In this document: positions 19,312-25,868 of the stretch, piece by piece | How positions within the stretch are numbered: position 1 is the stretch's first letter | How the letters are laid out: each line of letters begins with the position of its first letter | Assembly: GCA_902602795.1 (NCBI GenBank) | Contig: CACKSF010000006.1 | Location: forward strand, 1 to 44,123 | DNA length: 44,123 bases | Reading direction: 5' to 3' | Origin: an uncultured Fidelibacterota bacterium | GTDB lineage: Bacteria; Fidelibacterota; Marinisomatia; Marinisomatales; UBA1611 | Notes under the pieces: generated by a model | Told to the model about the DNA's origin: nothing | The model's input: the letters and a program-made list of their open reading frames with translations, nothing else | Databases searched by the model: none | Translations under genes and position numbers: made by a program

Positions 19312-20025
19312 TTATGAACTCCCTCTCTTTAATTCTAATATTCTATTTCGTACTAACTCTCCTAAATCTTTTACACTAAGTGTTGCAAACTGAGAACTTT
19401 TAATTGGTTCACCAAATACAACCGTTAATACCCCTGGCTGAACTCGCCAATCACTTTTCTTTTTTGCCTTAAACCCCCCTTTAAGAGCTAAAGGAACAAT
19501 CGTCGCATTTGTATTCTTGGCCAAATGAAACGGCCCTTTTTTAAAAGATCCTATTTTACCATTCAAAGTCCTTGTTCCTTCAGGAGAAATTAAAAAAGAG
19601 ACCCCGTTTTTTATCGCTTCTTCAGCAAGGTTTAGACTACCTATTGCTTTTCTAATTTTTTGTCTAATTATGGGAATGACACCGTATTTTTTGATTATAA
19701 AACCGAAAATTGGATATTTAAATACTTCAATAGCAGCTACCGCTGTAATATAATAAGGTATATATGCACCAATCATAAACTGATCGAACATAGAAACATG
19801 ATTAAACATATATAAATAAGGACCACCATTTTTTTTAGGAGGATTATTAATCCTTCTTAGCCATTGCCCTGCAAAAAAACAATACATCCAACATATTGGC
19901 CGAACAAAATAATGGAGTAGCTTTCTCGGAAAAATTAAAATAGCTATAAATAGTACTAGTAAAGAAGGAATGAAAAAAGCATACCAAACAGGCCAAATTA
20001 ACATAGAAAAAAAAGTTTTAAGCAT
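19312..20025 (-). CDS. plsC: 1-acyl-sn-glycerol-3-phosphate acyltransferase (PlsC family)
   Basis: 237 residues. It acylates lysophosphatidic acid to phosphatidic acid, the phospholipid precursor. An N-terminal hydrophobic region (about 5-35) anchors it, NHVSMFD gives the catalytic HX4D (His76, Asp81), and SPEGTRTLNG (Glu149 to Arg152) binds the substrate phosphate; the later VPLALKG block is also present. The ATG lies inside the 3' end of mutY (8-nt overlap). A related acyltransferase activity cannot be excluded, but PlsC is most likely. Confidence 0.87.
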   Translation of the reverse strand: MLKTFFSMLIWPVWYAFFIPSLLVLFIAILIFPRKLLHYFVRPICWMYCFFAGQWLRRINNPPKKNGGPYLYMFNHVSMFDQFMIGAYIPYYITAVAAIEVFKYPIFGFIIKKYGVIPIIRQKIRKAIGSLNLAEEAIKNGVSFLISPEGTRTLNGKIGSFKKGPFHLAKNTNATIVPLALKGGFKAKKKSDWRVQPGVLTVVFGEPIKSSQFATLSVKDLGELVRNRILELKRGSS

Positions 20026-21088
20026 ACCAGTTATTTAGTTCCAATTGGTTAAACAACTTATGGTTTGCCTTTGGGAAAGAATAGTTTTTTATATTTTTTA
20101 TTAAAATCCATTTCCTGTTTTCATTTTCATCTAAAAAATGTTTTTTTTCTACACAAAAATAACCATTAAGTCTTATTGTAAAGTGTGAAAAAGCATGGTC
20201 TACAAAACCTACATTTTTTAAAATTTTAGTATGCACACCACATTCTTTATAAACCTTTCGTTTTAAAGCTAGCTTTGGATCTTGTCCCTTTTTGACAATC
20301 ACTCCAGGAAACTCCCATAACCCGCCAAGCATTTGATCAACACTCCTCTTTTGTATATAAAATTTATTTTTCCTCCATATTATTGCAATTGCAACGTTAA
20401 AATGAGGTCGAAGTTTTAATTTTTTTTTAACTGGATATGCTTCTGGATTCCTTTTCTTTGAAGCGTAACAAAAATCATTTATTGGGCATTTTCTACAAAC
20501 AGGATTGTAAGGTTTGCAAATCAAAGCCCCTATTTCCATCAAACCTTGATTAAAGTCCCCAGGATTTTTCTTACATATTACTAAATTTAAAAATTTATTT
20601 ATTCTTTTTATATTGTACTTTGTTAATGTTTTTATTCCAATTATTCTTGACATGACTCTTTTTACATTCCCGTCTAATACAGGATAAGGCTTATTGAATG
20701 CAATTGATAAAACTGCTGATGCTGTATAATCTCCGACACCAGGCAAAGACATAAATCGACTTTTTTCTTTTGGAATTTTACTATTAAAATGACTAACAAC
20801 AAGCTTAGTAGCTTTGTAAAAATTATTACACCTTTTATAATACCCAAGCCCTTCCCAAAGTTTAAGTAATGAATCCAATTTCGATTGTGAAACAGATTCT
20901 AATGTAGGAAGTTTTTTTATCCAGTTATTATAATATGGTAGAGCAGTTTTAACCTTTGTTTGTTGCAGCATAACCTCTGACAACCAAATCTTATAAGGAT
21001 CCTTGGTATTACGAAAAGGTAAAGATCTTTTATTTTTAGTATACCAATAAATTACAAGGTGATGAAACGTATTTTTAATATTTTGCAA
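20018..21088 (-). CDS. mutY: A/G-specific adenine DNA glycosylase MutY
   Basis: 356 residues. It removes adenine mispaired with 8-oxoguanine. The HhH-GPD domain has SEVMLQQTKVKTA (catalytic Glu), MSLPGVGDYTASAVLSIAF (helix-hairpin-helix) and VLDGNVKRVMSR (catalytic Asp). The [4Fe-4S] cluster ligands are in ICKPYNPVCRKCPINDFC. A NUDIX-like C-terminal domain (about 225-350, LGGLWEFPGVIV) recognises 8-oxoG. The start is TTG at 21088, directly abutting the marR TAG. It overlaps plsC at its 3' end. Confidence 0.94.
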   Translation of the reverse strand: MQNIKNTFHHLVIYWYTKNKRSLPFRNTKDPYKIWLSEVMLQQTKVKTALPYYNNWIKKLPTLESVSQSKLDSLLKLWEGLGYYKRCNNFYKATKLVVSHFNSKIPKEKSRFMSLPGVGDYTASAVLSIAFNKPYPVLDGNVKRVMSRIIGIKTLTKYNIKRINKFLNLVICKKNPGDFNQGLMEIGALICKPYNPVCRKCPINDFCYASKKRNPEAYPVKKKLKLRPHFNVAIAIIWRKNKFYIQKRSVDQMLGGLWEFPGVIVKKGQDPKLALKRKVYKECGVHTKILKNVGFVDHAFSHFTIRLNGYFCVEKKHFLDENENRKWILIKNIKNYSFPKANHKLFNQLELNNWYA

Positions 21089-21508
21089 CTATCGGTTCAA
21101 ATATTTTATAATGGCCCAATTTAGAATAACACCAGATTCTATAATTTCACCTTTTGAGTCGTCATTAAATTGTCTTTCTATAGCATAACCAATTTTATCT
21201 AATTGAAATTCAATAATATTATTAACTTTTTTCCCATGTTTCGTAAGAAATACTTTAATAACTCTATTATCTGATGCTTCACGTTCCCTCATCACCAATT
21301 TTTTTTTCTCAAGCCCATCAATTAGTCTAGTTACAGTGCTATTATCAATCCCTAATTTTTTTGAAAAATATGACATCTCCACTCCGCTATTTTCGATCAA
21401 TAAAATCGCTAAAATCTGCTGAAAACTAATATTTGGGAATTTAAGATTCTTTTGATAAAGAGCTTTGAGGTTGTAAAACAACTCGAAAAGAAGTTCATTA
21501 TATTGCAT
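21089..21508 (-). CDS. MarR-family transcriptional regulator
   Basis: 139 residues. It has a winged helix-turn-helix (about 40-100): MSYFSKKLGIDNSTVTRLID is the recognition region, and LVMREREASDNRVIKVFLT is the wing with the family's typical D-x-R. Flanking helices would form the dimer. MarR proteins usually repress nearby genes and respond to small ligands. It lies 29 nt after the lipase gene and abuts mutY, so it could control the lipase set, though no operator is seen. Confidence 0.85.
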   Translation of the reverse strand: MQYNELLFELFYNLKALYQKNLKFPNISFQQILAILLIENSGVEMSYFSKKLGIDNSTVTRLIDGLEKKKLVMREREASDNRVIKVFLTKHGKKVNNIIEFQLDKIGYAIERQFNDDSKGEIIESGVILNWAIIKYLNR

Positions 21509-21537: not shown

Positions 21538-22731
21538 CTATTGAAGAGTTTTTAATAATTTAATATGTTTTTTTATTATATTAAATCCTCTCAATTTTTT
21601 TTCCTCAGATCCAAAATGACCAACAACACTCCAATGATCCATTTGATTAATTCTCGTCCAATACCACTGACCCGTTATCAAAAAATCTTTCGGATCATAT
21701 TCAATGATCGGGTCTGCTCCATTTCCTCCTGTAGTGGGACCAAACATCGATATTGAGTTAACGACACCATCATTTTCAAACCACAGTGAATCTGTTTGGG
21801 TTCCATCAGCCCAGTATCCTGACCTAGAGCCAATCAACTTTGCCCTAGCTTTATTTAGCAATGGAGTATCTTCGAAAGGAATCTGAAAACTAGTTTTTGG
21901 ATCTTTTTTTGTAGTGGATGTAATAAATGAAAAGTAATATACTTCTGGAGAGGCCTGTGCATATCCATTAAAATCTTTTGCCCCAACAAGGCTTAAATCA
22001 TATGCACTAAAATTTTTTGTTTTCATTATAGAATTATCTTTTAAACCTGTTATAAAACTCAACCAGGTCTCGTTTTTTTGTTTTTTTATTCCAAATTGCT
22101 CCAGATCAAAATGAAAGTAATTATTACCAAAAAGTCCTGCTATTCCAGCAAAATATTGAACGTATGGGATTGTACTAGTAATAATATGAGATAAAGTAGT
22201 CCCATCATGTGGAGTTGATATAGTTGTAATGCTTTTAATCCATCCTGAATAGGATTTCCCTAATAGAGTGGACTCTTCTTTTTCGCTGTTATTTTGATTA
22301 ATCTCTTGCGTTAATAAATAGTTTAACATTCTCGCAGTCTGCCCACCCATACTATGACCAATTAAATGAACAGGGTTTTCATTACTCCACTGAGGATATA
22401 AACCAACGTAATTTTTTCTCCTAGGCATCTGAATTATTTTATTTTTTTCTGAATGCCTAGAACCATAATCAACTTGACCTCCTTTAATTTGATAAAAAGC
22501 CTCAATAGCTCTATCCCAATTAGAGGAAATTGGACCTACTGAAACCGCAAATATTTGATGTCCTTCTTCTTCTAAATCTTTTATATAATTATTTTTGCCA
22601 CCCCAATAAGAATAATTCCCCATTTCTTCTGGTCCCCAACCCATAAAACCGTGGATAAAAACAATAGGGTAATTATTTTTTGCCATTCCGTATGATATGA
22701 AAAACATAATTATTGTTATAAAAGGTTTCAA
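21538..22731 (-). CDS. Secreted lipase resembling family I.5 (Geobacillus/Staphylococcus type)
   Basis: 397 residues. A signal peptide (about 1-17) is followed by PIVFIHGFMGWGPEEM (oxyanion region), SSNWDRAIEAF, GHSMGGQTARML (nucleophile Ser127), TTISTPHDGTTL, ENDGVVNSISMFGP (Asp321) and QMDHWSVVG (His366). This closely follows, from memory, Geobacillus L1/T1-type lipases, alpha/beta-hydrolases that cut triacylglycerols. Of the four zinc ligands in those enzymes the WD (73) and a His (93) are present, but the second His seems absent and the last Asp appears as Glu in DLEQFG. The ATG overlaps the preceding PorQ-like gene by 4 nt. Export beyond the periplasm is likely but unproven. Confidence 0.88.
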   Translation of the reverse strand: MKPFITIIMFFISYGMAKNNYPIVFIHGFMGWGPEEMGNYSYWGGKNNYIKDLEEEGHQIFAVSVGPISSNWDRAIEAFYQIKGGQVDYGSRHSEKNKIIQMPRRKNYVGLYPQWSNENPVHLIGHSMGGQTARMLNYLLTQEINQNNSEKEESTLLGKSYSGWIKSITTISTPHDGTTLSHIITSTIPYVQYFAGIAGLFGNNYFHFDLEQFGIKKQKNETWLSFITGLKDNSIMKTKNFSAYDLSLVGAKDFNGYAQASPEVYYFSFITSTTKKDPKTSFQIPFEDTPLLNKARAKLIGSRSGYWADGTQTDSLWFENDGVVNSISMFGPTTGGNGADPIIEYDPKDFLITGQWYWTRINQMDHWSVVGHFGSEEKKLRGFNIIKKHIKLLKTLQ

Positions 22732-23615
22732 AAGCTAATTCCTATACTTAATCCATCAACCCTTATCCCGACGCCGTAATAATATACCCCATACTGAACT
22801 AATATTTGATTGGAATCATATATAAACCCAAAGCCAGTAGCTCCTAGAATAGATCTAAATAAATTTTGTGAAGTGTTTTGATCAATTTTTCTATTTGATG
22901 ACCCTACTAAAATTTTTATATTTTTCTTTAAAAAGAAACAAGCTCCTATAAAAATTTCCCTTTTGTATTTTTTCTCAGTCAAAAGATCAAAATAAATTAT
23001 AACTGGTAAATAGTTAAGCTTTTTTGACCCCCCTAAAATAAAACTTGGACTAATGTATGAGAGTTGATGGTTAGTTAATTTTAAACCAATCTGATTAATA
23101 GAAAAACCAACTGCATTATTTTTATTTTTGAAATACCCAATTGCTCCTATTGACGATGTGAGGGTTTTAATATTTGATGAGCTAAAGTTTGCTGATTTAA
23201 AACTAACGCCGGATCCAAAGAAAATTGGATAAGAATTCATTTCTTTTGATAAATATCCATCAACCCAACTTTCATTTGATCTATAAGAACCAATATCTTC
23301 TCCAAGTTCATTGTAACCTTTAAAAATTCCATATGATATATGTTTAAAGGACGATGAAAAGACTAAATTATCAAATGGAAAATTTAAATTTAAACTTTGA
23401 CTGCTAATTGAAGCTGGATACCTTACAATGGAAGTTGTAATACTTCTAGATTTGTTAAAGATAGCTGGGTTTTTAATTTGTGCTTCAGCCGATAAAAATA
23501 ATGATCCTGCTCCTCCCATACTAAAACAGGAAGGAGAAGTAAACGCATTTCTATTCCCGTACACATTTGATTTAATATTAAAAAAAATAATTAAAGAAAA
23601 AATTAAATTCCACAT
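22728..23615 (-). CDS. PorV/PorQ-like outer-membrane barrel protein
   Basis: 295 residues. A signal peptide (about 1-20) precedes AFTSPSCFSMGGAGSLFLSA and IKNPAIF, the S-x-GGAG ... NPA pattern that opens the PorV/PorQ and FadL-like barrel families of the FCB group. The rest alternates strands rich in Ser, Gly, Tyr and Phe and ends in LSIGISF with a terminal Phe, as in BamA substrates. PorQ and PorV work in type IX secretion; FadL relatives pass hydrophobic compounds. It overlaps the lipase start by 4 nt, so a role in lipase export or lipid uptake is plausible but inferred. Confidence 0.65.
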   Translation of the reverse strand: MWNLIFSLIIFFNIKSNVYGNRNAFTSPSCFSMGGAGSLFLSAEAQIKNPAIFNKSRSITTSIVRYPASISSQSLNLNFPFDNLVFSSSFKHISYGIFKGYNELGEDIGSYRSNESWVDGYLSKEMNSYPIFFGSGVSFKSANFSSSNIKTLTSSIGAIGYFKNKNNAVGFSINQIGLKLTNHQLSYISPSFILGGSKKLNYLPVIIYFDLLTEKKYKREIFIGACFFLKKNIKILVGSSNRKIDQNTSQNLFRSILGATGFGFIYDSNQILVQYGVYYYGVGIRVDGLSIGISF

Positions 23616-23630
23616 TTGAGCAGTAAATGT

Positions 23631-25868
23631 TTAGATAAGACTAATTGGGTCAAAATAAATATTAATTTTATTTCGGCCAAGCAGTTTTTTATTGTTGTAG
23701 TTTTTAAAATTCTCATTAACAAACCTGTGAAGATAAACTCCGTTTGGATCAAAACGTTTTTTAGATTTAAAAACTAATTGAAACCTATAGTTATTTTTTA
23801 GTTTTTCTAAAAAACAAGGGGCTGGACCTAGAATATCAAGGCCGGTGTAAACACCTTTTAGGTTATGTTTAAATTTTTCTATTAAAGAAAAAAGCCTCAA
23901 TCGGTTTGGGCCTGCGAACTCAACTTTAGCTAACCAGCTATAAGGTGGATAATTTAATTCTTCCCTCTCAAGTAATTCAGTTTTGTAAAACTTTGCTATG
24001 TTTAGATTTTTTGCATTTTTAATAACTATATTATTTGGTGAATATGTTTGAATTACGACCTCTCCTTCTTTGGTACTTCTTCCTGAACGACCAGAAGCTT
24101 GATATATTAATTGAAACACTCTCTCTGTAGCTCGAAAATCCGGCAAATAAAGCCCTAAATCCGCATTAATTATTCCTACTAAAGTTGCATTTGGGAAGTC
24201 TAACCCTTTAGCCACCATTTGAGTACCAATAAGAATATCAAACTCTTGGTTACTAAAAGATTTTAATATTGAAGTGAGTCCTAAATTAGATTTAGAAGTA
24301 TCCATATCTAATCTACATATTTTTGATTTTGGGAAAGTATCCCTTATAAGCTGTTCAACTTTTTGAGTCCCTGTACCAGAATAAATTAGATTAGATTTAC
24401 TGCAGTCTTGGCAAATTAGCATATCATTGCTAATGGAAAATGAACAAAAGTGACAAACTAATCTATTCTTATTTTTATGATATGTAAGTGCTATTTTACA
24501 TTGATTACACATAACTAGAGCACCACAATCCTTACATTTTACTATCGGGGAAAAACCTCTTCGGTTTTGAATTAAAATTATTTGCTCATTTTTTTTTAGT
24601 TTTTCCTCTATTTTATCTTGTAATAAGCCTGAAATAACCTGATCAAAATTACCCGTTTCTTCTTGATTTAATAACATATCAACAATATGAACCTTTGGAT
24701 ATTTCGCATTACCAAATCGTTTAGGTAATCTTAAATATTCTATTTTTTTTTGCTGCGAATTATAAAAGCTTTCTAAGCTCGGAGTAGCGCTTGCGACAAT
24801 AACCGTGCTTTTTTCAAACGAACCTCTCATTAATGCCACATCTCTAGCATGATACCTTGGTTCTTTTGCATCTTGATAAAACGAAGACTCCTGCTCTTCA
24901 TCAACAATTATAAGGCCCACATTTTTTAATGGCGAAAAAATTGCACTACGAGCACCGATTACAATTTTAAAATCTCCAGTACATATTTTCCCCCAAGTCC
25001 AAGAACGCTGTGCTACTTTTAACTTTGAATGCCAAATCGCAACTATATCTCCAAAAACAGCACGAAAGCGACCAGCAATCTGAGGAGTAAGGGATATTTC
25101 AGGTAGCAAAATAATAGCGTTTCTTTTTTGACTTAAACAATATCGCACAGCTTCAATATAAATTTCTGTTTTCCCACTGCCAGTCACACCATGAAGTAAA
25201 AAAGAATAGAAATTGTATTTTTTTAAAGAAATAATTATTCTGTCAATTACTAGTTTTTGTTCTTTATTAAAAACAATATTCTTAAAAATAGGTTCAAAAA
25301 CTGATTGATTAAAATCTAGAGGTTTTGTTTTTTTAATTAGCTTTATTAATCCCTTCTCTTTTAAAGAAATACAAATTTGTAAAGGATTGCTTACTACTTT
25401 TTTAAAGGAAGAAACCTTAAAGGTTTTATTCTTTTTACTAATAATTTTAAATACTAAATATTGTTTAGGCGCTGTGTGTTTTAGTTTACTGACTTTTTCT
25501 AAATCAACTTTTTTTCTAGCCCTTACATAGTTCTTTATTTGTGGGGTATAATTACTAGAGAGCGACTTTGGGACAACGGAACTTGCCACCTTCCCAATTG
25601 GAGTAATGTAATATTTGCTTACCCAATTTATCAACTCCCATAGTGGATGAGTAATAACTTGAACATTATCAACAGGCTCAATAATTCTTTTAATTGAACC
25701 TAAGTACGAATTGTTTTTTTTAATATTTACAACTATCCCTTGAATAACTTTATTTCTAAAGGGGACAGAAACACGAGTTCCTACATTTATTGATAATATG
25801 TGTTTAGCTGGAATGGAATAGGTAAACGTCTGAAAACTGCGAATTGGGAAGGCAACTTCAGCAAACAT
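23631..25868 (-). CDS. priA: Primosomal protein N' (replication restart helicase PriA)
   Basis: 745 residues. It reloads the replicative helicase at stalled forks. The N-terminal 3'-DNA-binding domain (about 1-100) begins FAEVAFPIRSFQTFTYSIP. Helicase motif I is LLHGVTGSGKTEIY and motif II is IIVDEEQESSF, where the usual DEEH reads DEEQ. The zinc-binding part has CKDCGALVMCNQC and CHFCSF...CQDC, and motif VI is YQASGRSGRS. The ATG is at 25868, 16 nt after rplI. Confidence 0.95.
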   Translation of the reverse strand: MFAEVAFPIRSFQTFTYSIPAKHILSINVGTRVSVPFRNKVIQGIVVNIKKNNSYLGSIKRIIEPVDNVQVITHPLWELINWVSKYYITPIGKVASSVVPKSLSSNYTPQIKNYVRARKKVDLEKVSKLKHTAPKQYLVFKIISKKNKTFKVSSFKKVVSNPLQICISLKEKGLIKLIKKTKPLDFNQSVFEPIFKNIVFNKEQKLVIDRIIISLKKYNFYSFLLHGVTGSGKTEIYIEAVRYCLSQKRNAIILLPEISLTPQIAGRFRAVFGDIVAIWHSKLKVAQRSWTWGKICTGDFKIVIGARSAIFSPLKNVGLIIVDEEQESSFYQDAKEPRYHARDVALMRGSFEKSTVIVASATPSLESFYNSQQKKIEYLRLPKRFGNAKYPKVHIVDMLLNQEETGNFDQVISGLLQDKIEEKLKKNEQIILIQNRRGFSPIVKCKDCGALVMCNQCKIALTYHKNKNRLVCHFCSFSISNDMLICQDCSKSNLIYSGTGTQKVEQLIRDTFPKSKICRLDMDTSKSNLGLTSILKSFSNQEFDILIGTQMVAKGLDFPNATLVGIINADLGLYLPDFRATERVFQLIYQASGRSGRSTKEGEVVIQTYSPNNIVIKNAKNLNIAKFYKTELLEREELNYPPYSWLAKVEFAGPNRLRLFSLIEKFKHNLKGVYTGLDILGPAPCFLEKLKNNYRFQLVFKSKKRFDPNGVYLHRFVNENFKNYNNKKLLGRNKINIYFDPISLI

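Follow-up and report, generated by a model that had tools for sequence, protein, structure and literature searches.

An overlapping pair of genes for a PorQ-like barrel and a family I.5-like lipase in Candidatus Neomarinimicrobiota, probably brought together by gene loss

The window, the whole stretch of 44,123 nucleotides analysed here, carries a gene for a PorQ-like outer-membrane barrel that runs directly into a gene for a lipase related to family I.5. We consider it likely that a barrel of the type IX attachment complex and an exported lipase were joined by gene loss in a compact genome, and that the two are now probably co-translated. Judged against related genomes, barrel and lipase seem to have come to lie side by side a single time, through the disappearance of intervening genes, and the pair is thus probably not a purpose-built lipid-handling unit. 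The barrel would be the PorQ of the attachment complex, separate from the lipase; the latter would be an exported serine enzyme of the I.5/I.6 type whose cleavage of acyl esters is periplasmic or extracellular. Genes between the two would have been lost or moved in the window's family, so that priA-porQ and lipase-marR-mutY-plsC became one tight, operon-like series whose junction overlaps by 4 or 1 nt. Most likely, priA, porQ and the lipase gene would share one transcript, on which ribosomes re-initiate at TTGA to make the lipase.

The window's genome (G000) comprises 1.38 Mb and is 59% complete. The minus-strand gene run consists of rplI, priA, the genes of the 295-aa barrel and the 397-aa lipase, a MarR regulator, a mutY-type gene and a plsC-type gene (Table 1); the names rplI and plsC for the first and last genes are our assumption. 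The earlier note had described a 4-nt overlap of the lipase start with the barrel gene and a MarR gene after the lipase. Both are present, the overlap as the sequence TTGA and the MarR gene, confirmed by Pfam, after a gap of 29 nt. Gene overlap as such is common in the window: according to mechanical ORF calls, 12 of 39 same-strand neighbour pairs overlap or abut, and in 6 the overlap is exactly 4 or 1 nt.

Table 1. Features of the barrel-lipase locus, in coordinates of the window.
Feature	Position	Strand	Basis
priA	23631..25868	-	Pfam PriA domains
PorQ-like 14-strand outer-membrane barrel (predicted), 295 aa, ATG start	23615..22728	-	T9SS_PorQ match and AlphaFold2 model
TTGA overlap: lipase start TTG and barrel stop TGA	22731..22728	-	sequence reading
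Lipase, Lip_C (I.5/I.6) type, 397 aa, TTG start	22731..21538	-	Pfam, phmmer, model
Catalytic Ser127 codon (GHSMGG)	22351..22353	-	aligned to Ser113 of Geobacillus lipases
Catalytic Asp321 codon	21769..21771	-	aligned to Asp317 of Geobacillus lipases
Catalytic His366 codon	21634..21636	-	aligned to His358 of Geobacillus lipases
Ile99 codon, replaces zinc ligand His87	22435..22437	-	alignment, 44 relatives
Asn240 codon, replaces zinc ligand Asp238	22012..22014	-	alignment, 44 relatives
MarR-type regulator	21089..21508	-	Pfam MarR E 1.8e-9
mutY-type adenine glycosylase	20018..21088	-	HhH-GPD plus NUDIX_4
plsC-type acyltransferase, last gene of conserved block	19312..20025	-	putative name

The barrel had no Pfam match at E<=1. 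The NCBIfam model T9SS_PorQ (NF033711) recovered it with E 6.2e-12 and 45.2 bits, below the curated cut-off of 220, and PorV_fam with E 1e-6 and 28.6 bits, below the curated cut-off of 90. Among the aligned barrel homologues, T9SS_PorQ matched 33 of 33 at E<=1e-3 (best E 3.4e-30) and PorV_fam 28 of 33. Used as a profile against solved structures, the barrel alignment found no match at E<=1, and a fold comparison was therefore required. The AlphaFold2 model (pLDDT 86) has 14 strands, and its best Foldseek match is chain F of the type IX complex 8gl6, which we take to be PorV. The VIA-align Z scores of the model against FadL (2r88_A, 28.8), 8gl6_F (28.6) and 6h3i_F (28.2) are ties, and the modelled fold by itself cannot tell a transporter from a shuttle. 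Judged by sequence matches and model together, the barrel is PorQ-like with a predicted FadL/PorV-type fold. This agrees with the PorV/PorQ-like label given in the earlier note, and the barrel does not fall into a clearly unrelated family, which the note had named as counter-evidence.

In Porphyromonas gingivalis, according to PMC5562754, PorQ binds PorZ within a PorU-PorV-PorQ-PorZ complex, porQ mutants are defective in cargo processing, and PorV is a protein shuttle. The PorQ of this attachment complex represents the best sequence family for the window barrel and has the FadL/PorV-type fold in common with it. In contrast to the P. gingivalis protein, the window barrel scores below the curated PorQ cut-off and sits behind priA.

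The lipase matches the Pfam family Lip_C (PF24708) with E 5.9e-54 and 183.7 bits, above the gathering cut-off of 27. Its closest solved structure in a phmmer search is 5ah1 (EstA; E 5.7e-75, residues 18-376), and the solved Geobacillus family I.5 lipases follow with E of about 1e-64 over residues 17/18-383. The AlphaFold2 model has a pLDDT of 85, with residues 187-206 below 50; its top Foldseek matches are 5ah1 (E 1.4e-36, TMq 0.85) and I.5 structures. The catalytic triad Ser127, Asp321 and His366, read off the alignment to 1ji3, is unchanged in 44 of 44 aligned Neomarinimicrobiota lipases (alignment A4). By sequence, the protein is thus related to the family I.5 enzymes along its whole length and retains the catalytic triad. 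Among named records, those closest in lipase identity, at 94% and 67%, are Candidatus Neomarinimicrobiota MAGs.

The metal sites differ. The zinc ligands of family I.5, given in PMC6566366 as Asp61, His81, His87 and Asp238, align to Asp73, His93, Ile99 and Asn240 of the window lipase. His81 is kept in all 44 aligned relatives and the position of Asp61 holds Asp in 32 and Glu in 12, whereas His87 is replaced by Ile, Leu or Val, and Asp238 by Asn, in 44/44. An intact I.5 zinc site is therefore absent from all 44, two of its four ligands being replaced. The same source names Gly286, Glu360, Asp365 and Pro366 as calcium ligands. The last three align to Ser368, Phe373 and Gly374 of the window lipase, in a region where the clade is variable and the alignment loose; with this looseness, and with other calcium sites possible, Glu360 and Asp365 appear replaced in 44/44 and Pro366 in 43/44. 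The site of two Asp and two His is described as conserved in family I.5 in PMC12616515, and for this reason we do not class the window lipase as a full I.5 member. The earlier statement that the lipase follows family I.5 over its whole length thus holds for the fold, the quoted motifs and the triad, and fails at the zinc site. With the Geobacillus lipases L1, T1 and BTL2 and with EstA (5ah1), the window lipase has whole-length similarity, fold and catalytic triad in common; unlike the Geobacillus enzymes, it has replacements at two of the four zinc ligands and apparently at the aligned calcium ligands. The AMS3 lipase (5xpx), recorded from an Antarctic Pseudomonas, is likewise I.5-like with a Gram-negative recorded source genus.

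By eye, the start of the lipase is hydrophobic and signal-like, and the protein looks exported. At E<=1, neither TIGR04183 nor any other type IX C-terminal signal was matched in it by NCBIfam or Pfam. We found no literature on a Marinimicrobia lipase by title, and PMC12616515, which a literature search on family I.5 lipases and Gram-negative bacteria turned up, makes no mention of Marinimicrobia in its available text.

In the window's family, 30 of 33 genomes have both lipase and barrel, adjacent by coordinates in every one, and these 30 span 11 genera; the 3 in which neither gene was found are 57-80% complete. The adjacency therefore extends beyond a single genome, which the earlier note had treated as decisive, and is limited to this family. 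In the 26 mapped genomes, priA lies directly upstream of the barrel in every case, the lipase adjoins marR in 24, marR and mutY are adjacent in 24, and mutY adjoins plsC in 23. Of these 26 genomes, 22 have a barrel-lipase overlap of 4 or 1 nt, against 12/26 for priA-barrel and 45/231 for other same-strand pairs. The well-kept overlap is compatible both with selection for coupling and with plain stickiness of overlaps. It nevertheless counts against our preferred reading that the junction overlaps more often than other pairs despite diverged barrels (26-44% identical to the window barrel, with one close relative at 80%), since selection for coupling would yield the same pattern.

Outside the window's family the arrangement is different. 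In none of the 30 other genomes of the order with both genes on one fetched stretch are the barrel and the lipase adjacent, and in five further genomes (G088, G091, G100, G104 and G117) they lie 2.9-8.1 kb apart by coordinates. The interval holds 1 to about 15 ORFs, among them, in various combinations, genes for Peptidase_M1, Lrp/AsnC, glutamine synthetase, a protein of ~450 aa without a Pfam match, and others; these gene types were tested with profiles on one or two examples each. Genes of the prolyl-oligopeptidase and tRNA_bind types, again tested on one or two examples, often stand between lipase and marR. The upstream side is constant: priA lies directly upstream of the barrel in 36/36 other genomes of the order with that side visible, and G073, G078 and G124, three mapped genomes that lack the lipase, retain the priA-barrel neighbourhood. 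As a separate observation, the ~450-aa protein (L091:8504-9889 and similar) is encoded upstream of the lipase in many genomes of family f12; its sequence, inspected by eye, shows a CxxCH-like motif, and Pfam does not match it at E<=1e-5.

We also compared 12 genomes from other orders of the class, in which the best barrel matches, presumed orthologues, have E values of 3e-33 to 3e-11. A gene of ~300 aa lies between priA and the barrel match in 10 of the 12; one is direct and one meets a contig end. This gene (L172-L175, L177-L182) matched Peptidase_MA_2 in the one example tested. In 7 of 10 loci the lipase stands behind a gene of 411-421 aa, which in the single case tested encodes an M48 protease; in 4 the two overlap by 4 nt. 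Downstream of the lipase, marR-mutY is found in 5 of 10.

The history of the adjacency was read from a lipase tree with 86 rows. Core lipases of the order make up 65 of these, 25 from the window's family and 40 others; 11 belong to a second clade and 10 come from other orders. Lipase ORFs of <=370 aa and repeat stretches of genomes already used were left out, including a second lipase copy of G019 (L120), its upstream side cut by a contig end. The 40 other core rows come from 54 further genomes of the order with a lipase match, one of them weak. Five lipase genomes of the window's family stand outside the tree and their adjacency was taken from coordinates: G025, G027 and G028 had no fetched stretch, G003 had a stretch of the second clade alone, and in G024 the lipase gene is fragmented into short ORFs. 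The window's family occupies a single branch of 25 rows (SH-aLRT 96). The barrel is directly upstream in all 25, as against 0/49 of those other core and outgroup rows whose upstream gene can be seen (one core row, from f11, has none), and the label changes once on the tree. Genomes of the window's family give no more than weak matches (best E 8e-10) to the M1 peptidase found in the interval, and glutamine synthetase lies outside the interval in 25 of 33 genomes. Together with the single change on the tree, these matches suggest that the adjacency arose by one collapse of the interval. We also weighed a lateral transfer of the lipase between members of the order and set it aside; the rows group largely by family code, and one f15 row sits within f12.

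The direction of this change could also be the reverse, with adjacency as the ancestral state and the intervening block gained by other families. In its favour are the fork joining the window's family to the small families, which the tree leaves open, and the variation of the intervening genes in number and kind, from 1 to about 15 ORFs. However, in the genomes examined from other orders the genes flanking the lipase differ from those flanking the best barrel match, and we find an ancestral adjacency quite unlikely.

The lineage of the window has, like the type IX attachment complex of P. gingivalis, PorU, SprA and proteins with C-terminal signals. The PorU sortase of G000 scores 571 bits, above the cut-off of 420. 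The earlier note had pointed to C-terminal signals in other genes and to a sprA homologue as marks of such a system. The signals were recovered, with 31 matches in G000 and matches in 61/61 genomes of the order; SprA matches occur in 59 of the 61, 57 of them above the cut-off, and none was found in G000 (59% complete). Among 46 genomes of the order, PorU is found at E<=1e-20 in 39 and above the cut-off in 31, G000 included. The presence of a strong PorQ match (E below 1e-20) agrees with that of PorU in 42/46 genomes by the first measure and in 36/46 by the second, as against 35/46 for agreement with the lipase. The PorQ-PorU link is thus threshold-dependent, the strict count being hardly above that for the lipase; some of the eight PorU matches below the cut-off are contig-end pieces, and the true agreement may therefore lie between 36 and 42. 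The asymmetry is firmer than these counts: PorQ occurs without the lipase in 10 of the 46 genomes, 7 of which have PorU above the cut-off. The small genomes of family f9 possibly have a reduced type IX system. SprA is kept in 9/9 sampled, with 2-4 C-terminal-signal matches each; PorQ gives no strong match. Of the five genomes sampled for PorU, which is itself absent in 5/5, two have weak barrel matches near 1e-6. The lipase is absent from the f9 genomes except for one weak match (E 5.6e-4).

The barrel and the lipase might instead form a functional pair within the window's family, in which PorQ would hold the lipase at the outer membrane or give it surface access and co-translation would match their amounts. 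Adjacency kept over 11 genera and the short overlap in most mapped genomes would fit such a pair. However, a single change on the lipase tree means that the genomes of the family are not independent evidence for it. PorQ also occurs without the lipase, the NCBIfam and Pfam scans matched no type IX C-terminal signal on the lipase, and in other orders the lipase stands behind a different gene, with a 4-nt overlap in 4 of 10 loci. We regard a functional pair as unlikely. In a more specific form, which we hold to be very unlikely, PorQ and the altered-zinc-site lipase would have become a working pair in the window's family after their genes met; at the type IX attachment complex, the substrates of the lipase would be lipid anchors or lipids of the outer leaflet, and the 1- to 4-nt coupling would hold the ratio of the two proteins.

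We give least credence, and very little, to a FadL-like lipid-scavenging unit, in which the lipase would free fatty acids outside the cell and the barrel would import them. The barrel model fits FadL as well as it fits the type IX chain, in overall fold alone. Against this stand the T9SS_PorQ and PorV_fam matches of the homologues, the lack of any FadL model matching the window barrel at E<=1 in Pfam or NCBIfam, and the barrels found without a lipase. The lipid uptake suggested earlier thus finds nothing in our results that points to it, a FadL-like fold being also that of a type IX chain. Nor does the proposal of a dedicated lipase-plus-barrel unit agree with the absence of the adjacency from the 30 genomes outside the window's family and with the genomes that have PorQ alone. 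The joining of a type IX barrel and a separate lipase by gene loss, which we prefer, has its own difficulties: the window barrel lies below the PorQ cut-off, SprA is unmatched in G000, and the PorQ-PorU link depends on the threshold.

An adjacency spread over 11 genera with overlapping frames is thus more simply explained as a relic of gene loss than taken as proof of partnership. Two points are worth keeping. Components of a type IX attachment complex that resemble PorQ and PorU are now placed in Candidatus Neomarinimicrobiota, for which we found next to no literature on type IX secretion under the various names of the phylum. The other point is a clade of lipases whose I.5 zinc site is altered. 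Apart from this clade, a second one (L108-L111, L113-L119; families f1 and f12), 39-43% identical to the window lipase, is found at another locus. Its upstream gene is never a barrel in the 9 rows where that gene is visible, and it has a partly conserved neighbourhood of its own.
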